Assembly: GCA_030765605.1 (NCBI GenBank)
Contig: JAVCCG010000048.1
Coordinates: forward strand, 1 to 64,000
Reading direction: 5' to 3'
Source: Candidatus Alcyoniella australis
Lineage (GTDB): Bacteria > Lernaellota > Lernaellaia > JAVCCG01 > Alcyoniellaceae
DNA: 64,000 nucleotides
Positions within the stretch are counted from its first letter, which is position 1. Each line of letters opens with the position of its first letter. The translations under genes and the position numbers were made by a program. Of this stretch, positions 1-63,785 are shown in pieces. A model generated the notes under the pieces. It worked only from the letters and a program-made list of their open reading frames with translations, had not been told where the DNA came from and made no database searches.

Positions 1-1
1 G

Positions 2-271
2 CCGACCTATGAGGAGCGCTTCAAATCCAAGCGCCAACCGTTCATGTTCATCCAGGGAAACCTCGACAGCACAGTGCCGCTGGAATCGATCCAAGCCGCT
101 CTGGACCAGTACGAGGGTCCTAAAACCCTGCGGATTTTCGGGCAGAGCAACGAAGAGCCGGAGTTCGGGCACATCGATTTGCTCACCGGCGACGAGGCGC
201 CGAACCACGTCTGGCCCGCGATGCTCGATTGGATGACCGACGTGCTCGATTCCTCAAGCTCGCAGGGCTGA
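2..271 (+). CDS. C-terminal part of an alpha/beta hydrolase (partial)
   Basis: Open from the left edge of the window, about 89 codons in frame 2 ending at TGA. The fragment reads FMFIQGNLDSTVP, the usual late beta-strand of alpha/beta hydrolases carrying the acid residue (the D of LDSTVP), followed by GHIDLL near the end, where the catalytic His normally sits. This spacing of acid and His is what one expects of the last third of a hydrolase or lipase. The nucleophile elbow lies outside the window, so substrate and exact family cannot be told. It is convergent with the thiolase gene and separated from it by a terminator hairpin. Confidence 0.6.
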   Translation, partial: PTYEERFKSKRQPFMFIQGNLDSTVPLESIQAALDQYEGPKTLRIFGQSNEEPEFGHIDLLTGDEAPNHVWPAMLDWMTDVLDSSSSQG

Positions 272-276
272 CATAG

Positions 277-308
277 AAAAGGCCCCGTCCGCTAAGCCGG
301 ACGAGGCC
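277..308 (-). terminator. Intrinsic terminator of the thiolase operon
   Basis: An 11-bp arm GGCCCCGTCCG (281-291) pairs with CGGACGAGGCC (298-308) with one mismatch and a 6-base loop. Read on the minus strand, the hairpin is followed by TTTT (277-280), so it fits termination of the minus-strand genes ending at 329. The plus-strand side lacks a T run. Confidence 0.7.
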
Positions 309-328
309 CGTTATCAATCGCGTTAATA

Positions 329-1525
329 CTACTTGCCGAAGATCGCCACCGAACAGACCGAGCCCGAGGGGAACCCGCCCAGGTTGTGGGTCAGGCCGAC
401 CTTCGGATCGCTGAGTTGCCGCTCGTCAGCCTTGCCCTGCAGCTGCTTGTAGACCTCGTAGATCATCCGCAGGCCCGATGCGCCGATCGGGTGGCCGAAG
501 CACTTCAGTCCGCCGTCGATCTGGCAGGGGAGCTGGCCGTCGTGGTCGAAGAATCCGCTCTCAACGTCGTCGCGCGCTTTGCCCCGCGGCGAAATCTGTA
601 GATCCTCGTAGGTCACCAGCTCGGTGATCGAGAAGCAGTCGTGGACCTCCATCAGGCTGACCTCATCGCGCGGCGACTTGATACCCGCCTCCTCGTAAGC
701 GCGGATCGCTGCGCGGCAGGTGGTCTCGACGTGCGAACCGTCCCAGGAGTTGTGAGCCGCTTCCATCCCCGATGTGACCGCAATCTGCAGCGCCTTGACG
801 TAAATCGGATCGGGTCGCAGGCTCTTGGCGATCTCGGGGGTGGTAATGATGGCGCAGGCTCCGCCGTCGGACACACCACAACAGTCGTAGAGACCCAGCG
901 GATCGGCCACGATCGGCGCTTCCATTACTTGATCGATGCTCACCTCGCGGCGCAGGTGCGCCTTGGGATTGAGCGCGCCGTTATGGTGACTCTTGGACGA
1001 GATGTGGGCCAAAACTCTCTTGCCCTCCTCGCGGCTGAGCCCGTAGCGGTCGAAATAGCGCGTGGCCATCATCGCGAATCCGCCCGGGGCCGTGAGGTTG
1101 GGGAAGATGAAACGGTTGGTCGAGCCGGTGGCCGTACCGAAGTCCGGCAATCCGCCGTAGCCGGTGTCCTTGAGCTTCTCCACGCCCATCGCCAGAGCGA
1201 TGTCGCAGGCCCCGGCCGCCACGGCGTAGGCCGCGGCGCGGAACGACTCGGTCCCCGAGGCGCAGAAGTTCTCAACGCGCGTGACCGGCTTGAAGTCGAG
1301 CTTGAGCGCCGTGGACAGCGGGATCGCGCTCTTGCCCACGTTGACCTCGTCGAAGCACGCGCCGAGCCATGCGGCGTCGATCTGCTTTTTCTCCAGGCCC
1401 GAGTCCTCGAGCGCCTCGATCATCGCGTCGACCATCAGGTCGGCCGGACCCTTGTTCCACAGTTCGCCGAAATTGGTGCATCCCATTCCGACGATCGCTA
1501 CCTTGTCCCTAATTCCGCTTGCCAT
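329..1525 (-). CDS. Thiolase family protein (SCP-x-type acyl-CoA C-acyltransferase)
   Basis: A 398-residue thiolase-fold enzyme of normal family length. The nucleophilic Cys is Cys88 in NFCASGTES. The C-terminal half has EVHDCFSITEL and GGLKCFGHPIGASG, the His-containing motifs of SCP-2/SCP-x-type thiolases. This subfamily cleaves or forms beta-ketoacyl-CoA, and in archaea and some bacteria works with a DUF35 OB-fold partner that channels the CoA intermediate. Here the DUF35 domain is in the next gene upstream (1536-2999), only 10 bases away, so the two are probably one transcript and one complex. A strong Shine-Dalgarno (GAGGAGG) precedes the ATG. The active site looks intact. The substrate is unknown; acetoacetyl-CoA or a longer or branched ketoacyl-CoA are both possible. 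Confidence 0.85.
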   Translation of the reverse strand: MASGIRDKVAIVGMGCTNFGELWNKGPADLMVDAMIEALEDSGLEKKQIDAAWLGACFDEVNVGKSAIPLSTALKLDFKPVTRVENFCASGTESFRAAAYAVAAGACDIALAMGVEKLKDTGYGGLPDFGTATGSTNRFIFPNLTAPGGFAMMATRYFDRYGLSREEGKRVLAHISSKSHHNGALNPKAHLRREVSIDQVMEAPIVADPLGLYDCCGVSDGGACAIITTPEIAKSLRPDPIYVKALQIAVTSGMEAAHNSWDGSHVETTCRAAIRAYEEAGIKSPRDEVSLMEVHDCFSITELVTYEDLQISPRGKARDDVESGFFDHDGQLPCQIDGGLKCFGHPIGASGLRMIYEVYKQLQGKADERQLSDPKVGLTHNLGGFPSGSVCSVAIFGK

Positions 1526-1535
1526 CGGTGCCTCC

Positions 1536-2999
1536 TCAGCCCAGCTCGGCCACGGGAACGGCCTTCCAGAAGTAGCCGTGAATCCCGCGCTGCTGATCGT
1601 AGTACTTGCGCCGGAAGCTCATTTTCACCTGTTGACCGACCTTGATCTTCTCGAGCAGGCAGTCGGTGAAATCCATCTGCGTACGACCGCCGCCCTCGAA
1701 GTCGACAATGCCGTAGACCGCGGGCGGATCGAAGCTGAAGGCCAGCATGTCGCCGGTGTAGGTAAAAATCGTGCCCGGTTTGTCCGAGAAGCGGTAGGGC
1801 TCCATCTGATCGATCGCACCGCACTCGGGATTAACGCAGATTCGTTGCGATGGGTACTGCGCCCAACCGCAGGCCTGACATTTGGTGCCCACCAGTCCCA
1901 TCACCTGGCGTCGTTCGCGCCACAGCACGGACAGTGGAGTTGGTGCCTGGGTCTCACCGCGGATTCCCAGCTCCATGGGCACGATGTTCCGGAACACCGT
2001 GTATTTCTGGTAAGAGTTGAGGTCCTCTTTGAGCTGCAGGCAGCCCGAAACTCCCAGCGGTCCCTTGAAATCGGCGATGGCGTCGGTGCACTGGAAGAGC
2101 AGGGCGTCGGCCCCGTTGCCGTACCCCACGACGACCAGTTTATCTCCGGGCTTGGCCTGCTCCAGCGCTGCGATCAGCATCAACAGCGGGTGAGCGGAGC
2201 CGCTGTCCCCGACCTCGTCCATCAGCATCGACTGCACCTGCCCGCGTTCCAGCCCGAGCCGCTTGCCGATCGCGCGGTGTTCGCGCCCGAAGTGGCAGGG
2301 GTAGATCACCTTGGCCACGTCTTGTGGGTCGAAGGAGAACTTTTCGGCCAGCTTCTTGAGCGCCTTGGGGATCAGCTTGCTGTACCCCTCGTCGCGCATC
2401 CAGCGCTCTTCCCAGTTGCGGTCGAAGCGCGCTCCGCATTCGCGGATATGATCGGGGAAATCGGCGCTGATGCTCACCGAGCCCTTGAACTCGGCGATCA
2501 CGTCGTGTGAGCCCACGCACAGGGCGGCCCCGGCGTCGCCAAAGAACATCTCCTGCAGGCTGCCCATCTTGCCCAGGCGGCTGTCGGCCGCTGCCACCAG
2601 CATGTTGCTGTTGGCGCCGGATTTGATCGCGTCGATCGCTCCGAGCAACGCGGAGGTCGAGGCGCGCAGGCTCGAACTGAAATCGGCCGTACGGCAGTTC
2701 TCGTTCAGGTCCAGCGCCGAGGCCGCAATCGCGGCGTTGAGCCGTTCGCTGTAGGGCAAAGTGGTCGAGGCCAGATATAGGCCGTCGATCGATTCGCGCG
2801 AAATTGCCGGAGCGGCGAGGCAGTCGATGGCAGCGGAGACCGCCATCGTGATGCTGTCCTCGTCGAAGTTCGCCACAGCCTTCTCACCCCCGGCAGCAGC
2901 CATTGTTACGGGATTGAACCAGCCCATGGCCATGAAGACCATCATCCGGTTCAATCTGTAGCGTGGCACGCACCCGCCATAGGACACAATGCCGATCAT
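1536..2999 (-). CDS. HMG-CoA-synthase-like / DUF35 OB-fold fusion lacking the catalytic Cys
   Basis: A 487-residue fusion. Residues 1 to about 345 have the thiolase fold of HMG-CoA synthases (GDAGAALCVG, YPCHFGREH, VGDSGSAHPLL). Residues from about 360 to the end form a DUF35 rubredoxin-like/OB-fold unit with a zinc ribbon (C374, C377, C388, C393). At the position of the catalytic Cys (archaeal FACKAGTAAL) the protein reads SSLRASTSAL, so Cys is replaced by Leu111. Classical Claisen condensation through an acyl-Cys intermediate therefore looks impossible. The protein may be a scaffold or CoA-channelling partner of the adjacent active thiolase, or catalyse a different reaction such as a retro-aldol step. 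GGGAGGA lies upstream of the ATG. Domain assignment is firm; function is not. Confidence 0.75.
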   Translation of the reverse strand: MIGIVSYGGCVPRYRLNRMMVFMAMGWFNPVTMAAAGGEKAVANFDEDSITMAVSAAIDCLAAPAISRESIDGLYLASTTLPYSERLNAAIAASALDLNENCRTADFSSSLRASTSALLGAIDAIKSGANSNMLVAAADSRLGKMGSLQEMFFGDAGAALCVGSHDVIAEFKGSVSISADFPDHIRECGARFDRNWEERWMRDEGYSKLIPKALKKLAEKFSFDPQDVAKVIYPCHFGREHRAIGKRLGLERGQVQSMLMDEVGDSGSAHPLLMLIAALEQAKPGDKLVVVGYGNGADALLFQCTDAIADFKGPLGVSGCLQLKEDLNSYQKYTVFRNIVPMELGIRGETQAPTPLSVLWRERRQVMGLVGTKCQACGWAQYPSQRICVNPECGAIDQMEPYRFSDKPGTIFTYTGDMLAFSFDPPAVYGIVDFEGGGRTQMDFTDCLLEKIKVGQQVKMSFRRKYYDQQRGIHGYFWKAVPVAELG

Positions 3000-3206
3000 C
3001 AGGCAGTCCTCCCTGAGTAGAATTGAATTATTAGTTTTGTGAGGATTAAGCGCTGCCGTATCGTTGCTGCAGAATACGAAAAGGATTTGAACAGAAGCAT
3101 CTGACTAATGCAAGGTGAGTCAAAGCGTTGCGCTTTGCGTACTTGACCTGCCTGGTGCCTGTGGCTAGTCTCAGCGCGAATCAGCCGACCACCGGAGAAT
3201 ACGCAA

Positions 3207-4541
3207 ATGAAACTGACCTTGATCGGAGCCGGAGGCATCAGGACTCCGCTGTTCATCAGCTCCTTGCTCGGTCGTCCGCAACAGGCCGGAATCAGTGAGC
3301 TGATGCTCTACGACAACGATAAATCCCGTATGCCCTTGATGCGGCGGATGGGGGCGCGGCTGATCCAGCGTTCCGGTGCCGGGCTCAAACTAAAGTCGAC
3401 CCACAGCCTGTCCCAGGCCGTTGACGGCGCCTCGCTGGTGATCACCACGATCCGCGTGGGCAAAGAACTGGGACGGACCGCCGATGAGCGGATCGCGATG
3501 CGCCTGGGGCTGTTGGCCCAGGAGACTACTGGCCTGTGCGGATTCAGCTTTGCCGCGCGCTCGATTCCGGCCCTGCTCGAGATTGCAAAGCAGGTCGCCA
3601 AGCGCGCGCCCCGCTGCTGGCTGGTGAACTTCACCAATCCCGCGGGACTGGTGACCCAGGCGATGCACGACGCGGGATTCAACCGTTCGGTGGGTGTCTG
3701 TGACAGCGCGTCGGCTCTGGCGCGCCACGTTGCCAACGAGCGCGGCCTGGGTTTGGACGATATCGAGCTGGGCGTAATCGGCCTGAATCATCTGAGCTTT
3801 GTCACCCAGGCCCGGCTCAACGGGCGAAGCATCCTCGGCGCGCTGGTGCGCGACAGCGGCTTCCTGCGCCGCAACTACGGCGTGTTTCAGCCGACGAAAA
3901 TCACCGACCTCGGGGCGATTCCCAACGAGTACCTCTATTACTTTTGGCGGCACGCCCACGCGATGCAGGTTCAGTCCCGTAAAAAACAAACCCGCGGCGA
4001 TCAGGTGCTGGAGCTGACCAACCGTTTTCTCGAGGCTGCGGGAAAGTGCCGCAACGCCGAGGAGCTGCTCGAGGCTCACGAACAGATGATCGCCTCGCGC
4101 GAATCGAGCTACATGAGCGCCGCCTGGGGCAAGGGACGCCAACGCCCCACGGATGCGCTGTCCAATGAGGGCTACGCCGGTGTAGCGCTGAACTTCCTCA
4201 ACGCATTGCACGCTGAGCAGCCCCGTCGGATGGTGCTGATCCTGCCCAACCACAGCGGCGCCCTTGACCTGCCGCGTAGCGACACCATCGAAAGCTCGTG
4301 TGTGGTCGGCCCGGAAGGCCCGCGAGCGATACCGGTCAAACGTCCCGCCCCGTCGGCTGTCGCGCTGTTGCGTCGGATCAAGACCTTCGAGAGCCTCTCC
4401 AGCCGCGCGATCATCACCCGCGATAAACGCGCCGCGCTCGAAGCGCTTTCGATCCACCCGTTGATCGGCCCCAAGCAGGCCCAACGCGCCCTGTCCGCAC
4501 TGCTTAAGGAGCACGCCGAGTATGTCGGCAACTGGAGCTAA
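3207..4541 (+). CDS. Glycoside hydrolase family 4 protein
   Basis: A 444-residue protein, the usual GH4 length. GH4 enzymes cleave alpha- or beta-glycosides, often 6-phosphorylated, by an NAD- and metal-dependent oxidation-elimination mechanism. The N-terminus is a Rossmann nucleotide loop (LIGAGGIRTP, residues 5-14). NFTNPAG (near 141), GVCDSA with the metal-ligand Cys (near 158) and GLNHLSF with the metal-ligand His (near 191) are all present. The start has GGAGA upstream. The gene overlaps the following PfkB kinase by 20 bases, so hydrolysis and sugar phosphorylation are probably coupled. Substrate class (alpha-galactoside, 6-phospho-glucoside or glucuronide) cannot be read from the motifs. 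No transporter lies beside it. Confidence 0.8.
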   Translation: MKLTLIGAGGIRTPLFISSLLGRPQQAGISELMLYDNDKSRMPLMRRMGARLIQRSGAGLKLKSTHSLSQAVDGASLVITTIRVGKELGRTADERIAMRLGLLAQETTGLCGFSFAARSIPALLEIAKQVAKRAPRCWLVNFTNPAGLVTQAMHDAGFNRSVGVCDSASALARHVANERGLGLDDIELGVIGLNHLSFVTQARLNGRSILGALVRDSGFLRRNYGVFQPTKITDLGAIPNEYLYYFWRHAHAMQVQSRKKQTRGDQVLELTNRFLEAAGKCRNAEELLEAHEQMIASRESSYMSAAWGKGRQRPTDALSNEGYAGVALNFLNALHAEQPRRMVLILPNHSGALDLPRSDTIESSCVVGPEGPRAIPVKRPAPSAVALLRRIKTFESLSSRAIITRDKRAALEALSIHPLIGPKQAQRALSALLKEHAEYVGNWS

Positions 4542-10458: not shown

Positions 10459-10491
10459 GAAAAACAGCCCCGGCAGTAATGCCGAGGCTGT
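10459..10491 (-). terminator. Intrinsic terminator of the Asp-rich lipoprotein gene
   Basis: ACAGCCCCGGCA (10464-10475) pairs with TGCCGAGGCTGT (10480-10491) with one mismatch and a GTAA loop. On the minus strand it is followed by a run of T, matching the end of the 10522-11052 gene. It may also weaken plus-strand readthrough. Confidence 0.7.
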
Positions 10492-10521
10492 CGATGACTT
10501 GGTCTTTGAATTTGGTTCGCG

Positions 10522-11052
10522 TTATTTAGCGACCGGCTCGATCACCTCGAAAGCGAAGTTGTCCGGATCGCTGATCGCGCCGCAGTTGTCCTCGAGCTGA
10601 ACGTTGACAGCGTGGTCGCCCACGGCCAGTCCGCTGGGGCCCGCGTCATCGCCGATATACAGCTTGACGAAGTCGTCCACGCAGGGGAAGCCGTCGGCCA
10701 CGTCCTCGGCGGTCAACGCGATCGTGCTCCAATCGCCGCCGTCAAGCTGCACCCAGATCTGACCATCGACCAGGTTGCACTCCAGATCTGCGTAAACAGT
10801 GCCGAAATCGAACGCGTCGTCAGTGTCGATCACCAGCGGCGTAGTCGTGGTCTCGGTATCGTTGATCCAGAAGCGGAACTCGAGAATTCCCGGAGGGGAG
10901 TTGTCCGTGCAGTCGTCGTCATCGTCGTCGTCGATCGGAGGATTGGTATCGTCATCGTCATCGTCGCCCTCGTCACAGGCGACCGTTGCAAACAGCATCA
11001 TTGCGGCAACGATCGATACGGCTAAGATCAGCCAGAATTTGCTCTTCATCAT
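10522..11052 (-). CDS. Lipoprotein with poly-Asp linker, unknown function
   Basis: A 176-residue protein. The signal peptide ends MLFATVAC, a good lipobox. Mature Cys is followed by two poly-Asp runs around a short TNPPI spacer, then a globular domain of about 130 residues with paired Cys and an Ig-like pattern (ILEFRFWIND, WVQLDGGDWSTI, HAVNVQLEDNCGAI). Such Asp-rich spacers after the lipidated Cys recur in this window (24064 and 34234 genes) and probably hold the domain away from the membrane or bind Ca2+. GGAGAAAA precedes the double ATG. The gene stands alone between two terminators or gaps. No family recognised. Confidence 0.6.
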   Translation of the reverse strand: MMKSKFWLILAVSIVAAMMLFATVACDEGDDDDDDTNPPIDDDDDDDCTDNSPPGILEFRFWINDTETTTTPLVIDTDDAFDFGTVYADLECNLVDGQIWVQLDGGDWSTIALTAEDVADGFPCVDDFVKLYIGDDAGPSGLAVGDHAVNVQLEDNCGAISDPDNFAFEVIEPVAK

Positions 11053-11142
11053 TTTTCTCCAACATTAAGTGGTGGATTGTTGTAAGCAAAATACAATAAA
11101 CCGTAAAACCTCCGCAAGGGAATTATCTTGGGGTTAAACGGC

Positions 11143-11625
11143 TCAATCCTTGTCTTCGCCGGAATCCTGTGATTCTTCGTCGACCACGCTCCACATATCG
11201 TCTTCCTGAACTATCTCGCCCGGCGACAGATCCCAGGTATCTTTTGACATCTTCACTTCCTCATGCTCTTGAGGAGAAGCAAGAAGCTTCATCACCTGTT
11301 CGTAGATCTCTTTCTTCGGAATCCGGTGTTTCTCGAACACCATGTCGACTGCCTGGCGGACGGTCGGGGCTTTGCGCACGGCCTCGATGATATCGTTGTG
11401 AACGTCGGACACTGTGAGCGGTCTGTCCTCAAGCTTGATCGTGCGCGGCACCGTGGCGAGCCTGATGATCCAGCGGACGATCACCAGTACGCAGCACAAG
11501 CAGAAAAGCGCGATGGTCACCGGAAGCTCATAGGGCTCCAGGCTGTAGATGTGCTGCGGCGAAAACAGGTGGTAAGCCAGCGATGCAATTGCCAACATCA
11601 GCGTCGACAGGGCTAGTTTCAGCAA
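11143..11625 (-). CDS. Small membrane protein with acidic cytoplasmic tail, unknown
   Basis: A 160-residue protein with two N-terminal membrane helices (about residues 3-20 and 35-55), then a soluble region of about 100 residues ending in an acidic tail (DEESQDSGEDKD). The segment HNDIIEAVRKAPTVRQAVDMVFEK is helical and charged. No family recognised. It has its own promoter region and is divergent from the lipoprotein gene at 11748. Confidence 0.5.
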   Translation of the reverse strand: MLKLALSTLMLAIASLAYHLFSPQHIYSLEPYELPVTIALFCLCCVLVIVRWIIRLATVPRTIKLEDRPLTVSDVHNDIIEAVRKAPTVRQAVDMVFEKHRIPKKEIYEQVMKLLASPQEHEEVKMSKDTWDLSPGEIVQEDDMWSVVDEESQDSGEDKD

Positions 11626-11747
11626 ATTTCCAACTCACTGTATTGTGTCTGGTCTTTATTACCAGTCAGCGGCTTGTCGGGTCAATCCAAGATAATCGTT
11701 AAGCAATGGGCTTGCCAGCATCAATCACCGGTCTATATTGTTTGACG

Positions 11748-62537: not shown

Positions 62538-63785
62538 ATGCGCGAAGTCGTAATCGTTGCTGCGTGCCGCACGGCAGTCGGTAAGGCCAAACGCGGGTCG
62601 CTGGTTGATACCAGGCCCGACGACATGGCCGCAACCGTTATTGCCGAAGTGGTGAAGCGTGCCGGCATCAAGCCGGAAATTATCGATGATGTAGTCTTCG
62701 GCTGCGCCATGCCCGAGGCCGAGCAGGGCATGAACGTAGCTCGTAACGCGGTGTTCCTGGCCGGCCTGCCGCAGACCGTCCCCGCAATGACTCTTAACCG
62801 CTACTGCTCCTCGGGAATGCAGGCGATCTGGAACGTCGCCACCGATATCATGGCCGGAACAATCGACGTCGGCATCGGCGGCGGTACCGAGACCATGAGC
62901 ATGATCCCGATGGGCGGCAATAAGATCGTGCCCAACATCAAACTTGGCAAAGATTGGCCCGGCGCCTACTCGGGCATGGGACAGACCGCTGAGAACGTGG
63001 CCATGAAATACGGCGTCAGCCGCGAGGACCAGGACCAGTTCGGACTGGAGTCCAACCGCAAGGCGGCCAAGGCCAACGAGACCGGCGCGTTCAAAGAGCA
63101 GATCGTACCGCTCAACACCTACATGTTTGACGGCAAGGGCAATAAAAAAGAGTTCGTGTTCGAGGTCGATGAGGGACCGCGCGGCGACGCCAACATTGAG
63201 ACCATGGCCAAGCTACGTCCCGCATTCGCCAACCCCAAGGCCAAAACGCCCGAGAAGCTGTTCGACGGCTCCGAGCCCAAGGGCAAGCTTGGCACAGTGA
63301 CGGCAGCCAACAGCTCGCAGATGAGCGACGGCGCAGCCGCAGTGCTGCTGATGGCGCGCGAGAAGGCCGAAGAGCTGGGCCTCACTCCGATGGCCCGCGT
63401 TCACGGCGTGGTCACCGTGGCCTTTGAGCCCGAGCTGATGGGCATCGGACCGGCACTGGCCGTCCCACGACTGATGGAGAAGGTCGGCAAGCCCCTGGGC
63501 ATCGGCATGGACGACATCGGCGTGTTCGAGCTCAACGAGGCGTTCGCCAGCCAGGGCGTGTATTGCTCACGCGAGCTGGGTCTCGTGGATGATCCGCGGG
63601 TCAACCCCAACGGCGGCGCGATCGCCCTGGGGCATCCGCTGGGCTGCACCGGCGCCAAGCTGACCACCCAGATTGTCTACCACATGAAGGACAACAACCT
63701 GAAGTACGGTGTGGTCACGATGTGCATCGGCGGCGGTATGGGAGCAGCCGGACTCTACGAGAACCTGCTGTACGAAGAGAAATAA
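62538..63785 (+). CDS. fadA: Acetyl-CoA acyltransferase (3-ketoacyl-CoA thiolase)
   Basis: A 415-residue thiolase with GGAGG before ATG, 26 bases after the dehydrogenase gene. Active sites: Cys90 in [10 protein letters not shown], His in [16 protein letters not shown] and second Cys in [26 protein letters not shown] completes the signature. It cleaves 3-ketoacyl-CoA in beta-oxidation and is distinct from the SCP-x-type thiolase at 329. A strong terminator closes the operon. Confidence 0.93.

Follow-up and report, generated by a model that had tools for sequence, protein, structure and literature searches.

A thiolase paired with a fused HMG-CoA-synthase-like/DUF35 protein lacking the synthase catalytic residues in Candidatus Alcyoniella australis

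A gene pair on contig C48 of Candidatus Alcyoniella australis encodes a thiolase and, fused to a DUF35 domain, an HMG-CoA-synthase-like (HMGCS-like) domain which has lost the catalytic residues of the synthase. The evidence says that the two proteins belong together as a unit in which a thiolase is accompanied by a dead paralogue, kept across many bacterial lineages. The fusion probably serves a degradative 3-oxoacyl-CoA thiolase as a structural subunit without catalysis of its own; this reading rests on the loss of the catalytic Cys, Glu and His, on purifying selection acting in relatives, on the close pairing of the two genes and on the catabolic neighbourhoods of many relatives. We infer in addition that the HMGCS-like fold is retained, that the proteins form a physical complex, that the thiolase acts in the thiolytic direction and that its substrate is branched, aromatic or bulky; direction and substrate are guesses. 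An active thiolase that has a dead HMGCS-like partner has been described before (PhlABC, with PhlA as the dead partner), and we regard the pair as a relative of this known arrangement, fused and apparently catabolic, and not as a new kind of system.

Gene organization at the locus

The DNA analysed, referred to here as the window, comprises bases 1-64000 of the contig, which comes from a 4.29-Mb genome that is approximately 98% complete. An intact open reading frame on the minus strand (1536-2999) with profile and phmmer matches encodes the 487 aa fusion, and its stop codon is separated by 10 bp from the start of a gene for an SCP2-type thiolase of the PRK06157 family (398 aa, 329-1525, minus strand), which scored 644.5 bits with NF004810 against a cut-off of 403. 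A terminator-like hairpin with a 12-pair stem followed by a T-rich tail is located 3' of the thiolase gene (280-309, minus strand), and a glycoside-hydrolase-4 gene begins at 3207 and is divergent from the fusion gene. With these features on either side the pair looks like a two-gene transcription unit, the hairpin being weak evidence since the terminator scan returned three sites of this kind and shuffled sequence gave 2.5 on average. A sigma-70 promoter scan of positions 1-3300 gave no match, nor did Rfam and tRNA scans of the 64-kb window. Plus-strand open reading frames at 641-1645 and 1281-2510, which overlap the pair, were taken as shadow ORFs. Within the window the pair stands alone, with no acyl-CoA catabolic cluster around it. 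A second thiolase gene, containing both classical Pfam thiolase domains, is found at the far end of the window (62538-63785, plus strand).

Active-site residues of the HMGCS-like domain

Residues 1 to approximately 340 of the fusion (1980-2999, minus strand) were assigned as HMGCS-like from matches to NF003274 and Pfam PF08541 and phmmer matches to 5m3k_A and 6esq_I. The profile scores fell below their cut-offs, with 210.9 bits for NF003274 on residues 1-338 (cut-off 244), 141.1 bits for TIGR00748, the archaeal-type HMG-CoA synthase model, on the window fusion (cut-off 353.35) and 26.2 bits for PF08541 on the fusion protein, just under its cut-off of 26.6.

The active-site columns were read against the M. 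thermolithotrophicus HMG-CoA synthase (6ESQ chain I). Pro234 of the fusion (codon 2298-2300, minus strand) occupied in MAFFT alignments the column of the catalytic His. The nucleophile Cys114 and catalytic Glu82, numbered as in PMC6392133, were aligned with Leu111 (2667-2669, minus strand) and Thr79 (2763-2765, minus strand) respectively, the latter in MAFFT alignments and the former both there and by phmmer against PDB sequences. The Leu in place of the active-site Cys had been reported in the initial annotation, and the alignment to archaeal HMG-CoA synthases that it proposed was run and placed no Cys at the nucleophile position of the fusion. The synthase partner had also been called dead there; the loss in fact goes beyond the Cys to the catalytic Glu and His, which had been missed. 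AlphaFold prediction of the fusion alone from a 7-row alignment was poor (mean pLDDT 47.9).

Survey of the fusion family

Fifty fusions including that of the window, found by profile among the fetched loci and reading more than 430 residues, were put in one alignment with 13 unfused HMGCS of archaeal type, among them 6esq_I, and with three further HMGCS-like proteins (L018, L142 and L143), 12 proteins labelled FabH-like, PhlA and 9vbo_A. Cys was present in the nucleophile column of none of the 50 fusions, 28 having Leu there, 14 having Gln and the other eight each a different residue, and the His column likewise contained no His (Pro in 24 fusions, Ala in nine, Tyr in eight, Ser in four and another five residues once each). 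The Glu column contained Thr in 43 fusions and Ser in three, with Met, Val, Glu (L098) and a gap once each. Cys, Glu and His were all kept in the 13 archaeal-type unfused HMGCS as well as in L018, L142 and L143, and Cys and His were kept in 12 of 12 FabH-like proteins. All three residues were lost from PhlA (Gly, Cys and Gln in the Cys, Glu and His columns) and 9vbo_A (Glu, Cys and Gln). Judged from the alignment, loss of the catalytic residues is a trait of the whole fusion family examined, beyond chance. Gly205, Gly267, Ala269 and Leu272 were nearly fixed in 39 core fusions and common to PhlA, not to HMGCS, a pattern which would fit a remodelled pocket. 9vbo_A is a solved HMGCS-like chain, and the same PDB entry contains a thiolase-like chain, 9vbo_E; entry 9vbo was not named in the open-licence literature searched.

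We estimated dN/dS in nine pairs of closely related fusions drawn from two genome groups, the window copy having no relative close enough. Eight of the nine pairs yielded a value for the HMGCS-like part, between 0.03 and 0.11 and with dS above 2 in three of the eight; seven pairs yielded values of 0.01-0.10 for the DUF35 part. By these codon-level estimates purifying selection acts on the dead domain in the relatives.

A tree of the HMGCS-like domain (68 rows, 308 columns) placed the fusions in one clade (93/76) and HMGCS together with PhlA in another (94/86), with long branches for L016, L098, L111 and 9vbo_A. A topology in which PhlA, 9vbo_A and the fusions were forced together was not rejected (p-AU 0.229), so PhlA and the fusions may have lost the residues in a single event or in two. 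The window fusion grouped with those of a Geothermincola (Actinomycetota) MAG and a Syntrophomonadaceae (Bacillota) MAG (98/80). The survey panel comprised 154 genomes, nearly all of different families, and among the matches listed at least 15 had a fusion of the 50 and at least 12 had an HMGCS match above 490 bits; no genome among the matches listed had both, one 472-aa match in G102 aside. The fusion/thiolase pair was patchy in the phylum of the window, being present in three of seven genomes, with four of seven having no full-length copy; in three other small phyla the fusion occurred in 3/3, 9/9 and 2/3 genomes.

The DUF35 domain and the thiolase partner

Residues 360-485 of the fusion (1545-1922, minus strand) form a DUF35 domain comprising a zinc ribbon and an OB fold, matched to 6esq_E by phmmer (1e-15) and to the OB-fold model OB_ChsH2_C (Pfam PF01796) with 33.9 bits, above the 27.1 cut-off. 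The zinc ribbon, which the initial annotation had called intact, does appear so from its residues, as Cys374, Cys377, Cys388 and Cys393 (1821-1880, minus strand) are all there, though the Pfam zf-ChsH2 model gave 16.9 bits, under its cut-off of 23.2. The four Cys were complete in 48 of the 50 fusions. Two fusions on plasmids of Sphingomonas and Variovorax (L104 and L112) had lost three of the four and kept the thiolase partner.

The neighbouring thiolase is intact at Cys88 (codon 1262-1264), as had been stated, and also at Cys297 of the HDCF motif (635-637) and His345 of the GHP motif (491-493, all minus strand). From known thiolases we take Cys88 to be the acyl acceptor and Cys297 and His345 to serve as acid/base. 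All of these motifs were invariant across 16 aligned thiolases, three of which were partners of unfused HMGCS.

A thiolase gene on the same strand adjoined the fusion gene in 47 of 50 cases, downstream in 46 and upstream in one (Natrialba, locus L111). No adjoining thiolase was found at L127 (270 bases of sequence beyond the gene), L129 (1104 bases) or the divergent L016. The nucleophile Cys was visible in 46 of the 47 partners, the exception being L027, where the residue was unread across a frame break. At L027 (Smithella) the thiolase gene is split over two frames at 10478-11678, representing a frameshift or an assembly error. The open frames of the L114 and L086 partners stopped ahead of the later catalytic motifs, and in the L084, L136 and L139 thiolases one or both later motifs were not seen, the available sequence not spanning a complete thiolase gene. 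Two genomes each contained two distinct fusion copies a few kb apart (L006 and L045 in G030:C75; L042 and L044 in G061:C87), and the thiolases adjoining L044 and L045 had a NACCTAT stretch at the nucleophile.

Metabolic context

No HMG-CoA reductase match was obtained in the approximately 98% complete genome, where the same search was positive in 5 of 14 control genomes, and no HMGCS above cut-off was found, the best match in the genome being the window fusion itself, below cut-off. The genome had 14 acyl-CoA dehydrogenase matches. A separate acyl-CoA cluster of the same genome, outside the window (G000:C146:40414-46892), consists of a tandem pair of thiolase-like genes with two acyl-CoA dehydrogenase matches near.

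Many relatives lie in acyl-CoA catabolic neighbourhoods, scored as raw presence of such genes. Five of six named contigs were annotated for context (L023, L024, L025, L027 and L028; the short L026 was left out). The pair of L025, a Myxococcota MAG, is surrounded by genes for AMP-binding ligases, acetyl-CoA hydrolase/transferase, SDR, enoyl-CoA hydratase and acyl-CoA dehydrogenases, and that of L027 has SDR, acyl-CoA dehydrogenase and family III CoA-transferase neighbours. Two family III CoA-transferases were present upstream at L023, and L024 had an SDR upstream and a 3-hydroxyacyl-CoA dehydrogenase near. At L028, a relative from the branch nearest to the window fusion, a scan of six neighbours identified no beta-oxidation gene. 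Of 55 plasmid records matched, 12 were annotated and all 12 contained acyl-CoA dehydrogenase, enoyl-CoA hydratase/MaoC, ligase or CoA-transferase by deposited names within the annotated stretch, again as raw presence. The weakest plasmid context was that of L106, with SDRs close by and one cut acyl-CoA dehydrogenase at the edge.

Comparison with known systems and alternative explanations

A likeness to the archaeal thiolase/HMGCS/DUF35 complex had been proposed in the initial annotation and is borne out by phmmer matches to all three 6ESQ components, the thiolase matching 6esq_A at 2.7e-55 and the HMGCS-like half the HMGCS chain at 2.4e-27, in addition to the DUF35 match given above. The archaeal complex differs in that its HMGCS keeps the Cys, Glu and His and serves the mevalonate pathway, and in that it consists of three separate chains. 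PhlABC, the MAPG acetyltransferase (a Friedel-Crafts acylase; 5M3K/5MG5), is similar in having an active thiolase, an HMGCS-like subunit without Cys, Glu and His, and a DUF35 protein, but there PhlA and PhlB are separate proteins and here they correspond to one chain. PhlABC also acts in antibiotic synthesis without added CoA, whereas many fusion relatives lie in acyl-CoA catabolic clusters. PMC6392133 describes PhlABC as dodecameric, with a cavity that runs continuously between its three kinds of subunit; the product is contacted solely by PhlC residues, and PhlA lacks the Cys and Glu. The complex is reported there to be functional only if the whole operon is expressed, with PhlA and PhlB very likely needed for assembly, and the paper leaves possible a role for these two in earlier biosynthetic steps.

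By analogy, the simplest reading would be a division of labour like that of PhlABC with PhlA and PhlB fused, in which catalysis falls to the thiolase, held in place and shaped by the dead domain together with DUF35. The thiolase next door would do the chemistry, cleaving a 3-oxoacyl-CoA with CoA; Cys88 would take the acyl group and Cys297 and His345 would act as acid/base. The dead HMGCS-like domain and its attached DUF35 domain would build a thiolase/HMGCS-like/DUF35 assembly as in the archaeal complex and PhlABC, and thiolase folding, CoA entry and the shape of the pocket would depend on the fusion. The initial annotation had suggested a channelling scaffold or a different acyl-CoA chemistry. 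A scaffold would be the best reading of the sequences, but channelling is weakened, as there is no second active site and no obvious destination to channel to. A different chemistry is favoured indirectly by the missing HMG-CoA reductase match and by the acyl-CoA catabolic neighbours of many relatives.

The BbsB equivalog model, for the benzoylsuccinyl-CoA thiolase BbsAB (7PXP), gave 158.2 here against a cut-off of 750. BbsAB is not known to contain an HMGCS-like domain. As described in PMC10818641, BbsAB is a degradative thiolase with a zinc-finger subunit; it catalyses the last step of benzylsuccinate beta-oxidation, and its partners (CoA-transferase, acyl-CoA dehydrogenase, hydratase and hydroxyacyl-CoA dehydrogenase) resemble the gene company of L025 and L027. 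A substrate lead sought by name (vanilloyl acetic acid, VceA) gave nothing useful in the literature search.

The pair could act as a C-acyltransferase like PhlABC, in which the thiolase would transfer acyl groups from one carbon acceptor to another in Friedel-Crafts fashion, with no cleavage of a CoA thioester, and the fusion would represent PhlA plus PhlB. Among solved chains, those of PhlA type match the HMGCS-like half best (9skh_A, 3e-38; 5m3k_A, 6.6e-38; 1.3e-68 and 3.9e-66 with profile search), PhlA lacks the same three residues, and a clade of PhlA, 9vbo_A and the fusions was not rejected. We nevertheless consider this function improbable, given that the window thiolase is far from PhlC (6.8e-23) when compared with its match to 6esq_A, that acyl-CoA dehydrogenase, hydratase and CoA-transferase genes lie near many relatives, and that the best tree sets PhlA by HMGCS and apart from the fusions.

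Ltp2-type aldolases are not known to have the nucleophile Cys. It is very unlikely that the pair is a retro-aldolase of the Sal or Ltp2 kind, with a thiolase-fold protein and its DUF35 partner cleaving a side chain off a CoA ester: PMC12329534 states that Sal needs a YDCY motif, and the window thiolase has the ordinary Cys88, HDCF and GHP. What the pair has in common with the steroid aldolases Sal/Shy and Ltp2/ChsH2, according to the same paper, is a DUF35 domain bound to a thiolase-fold partner, DUF35 domains being credited with holding such complexes together. Besides being retro-aldolases these systems differ in that Shy fuses DUF35 to MaoC and not to an HMGCS-like domain, as given in PMC11321319.

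Equally little credence can be given to the HMGCS-like domain being still an enzyme with a rebuilt site, in which Cys235 (codon 2295-2297, minus strand), one residue past the lost His, would be a relocated thiol. Cys235 was present in 24 of the 50 fusions overall. It is conserved by lineage: when proteobacterial plasmid rows are left aside, the window's branch has 24 fusions, of which 22 carry it (16 of 18 after thinning of near-duplicates), and this and the prevalence of Thr at the Glu column speak for such a site. It was, however, found in none of the nine fusions that this branch has on proteobacterial plasmids and in two of the 17 remaining fusions, and nearly all of those without it are still paired with a thiolase. 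Cys235 may be a structural residue or a relocated thiol. We hold it very doubtful that in the window's branch Cys235, Thr79 and a CoA cavity common with the thiolase make up a second, rebuilt site, giving a two-site complex with a chemistry undescribed for the fold.

An HMG-CoA synthase for isoprenoids with an alternative nucleophile is extremely improbable. The sequence and partners are like those of the archaeal thiolase/HMGCS complex and one fusion, L126, just exceeds the NF003274 cut-off, but Cys, Glu and His are lost and the window fusion scores below the cut-offs of both synthase models; as its own genome gave no match to HMG-CoA reductase and has no genuine HMG-CoA synthase, a mevalonate role is unlikely and was rejected. 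A functionless, decaying relic or sequencing artefact, to which the missing catalytic residues and the four genomes of the phylum without a full-length copy might point, is hardly credible in view of the intact frame, the many bacterial lineages and the constant thiolase partner, and is rejected for the relatives by the dN/dS of the HMGCS-like part, the window copy lying outside that test.

Annotation of the fusions

The reading as a structural subunit of a degradative thiolase points to a widespread, apparently uncharacterised thiolase type in acyl-CoA catabolism, and it offers a clean test case for why a thiolase retains a dead partner. No description of the fusion family was found in the open-licence literature searched. 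The L126 fusion (G038), which is without the Cys, Glu and His, just passes NF003274 with 244.5 against 244 bits. Proteins of this kind can thus be given a wrong name by family models, and fusions should not be read as HMG-CoA synthases. In plasmid records the fusions were mostly named 'OB-fold domain-containing protein', '3-oxoacyl-ACP synthase III C-terminal domain-containing protein' or 'hypothetical protein', and the partner carried, as a name only, 'acetyl-CoA acetyltransferase'.
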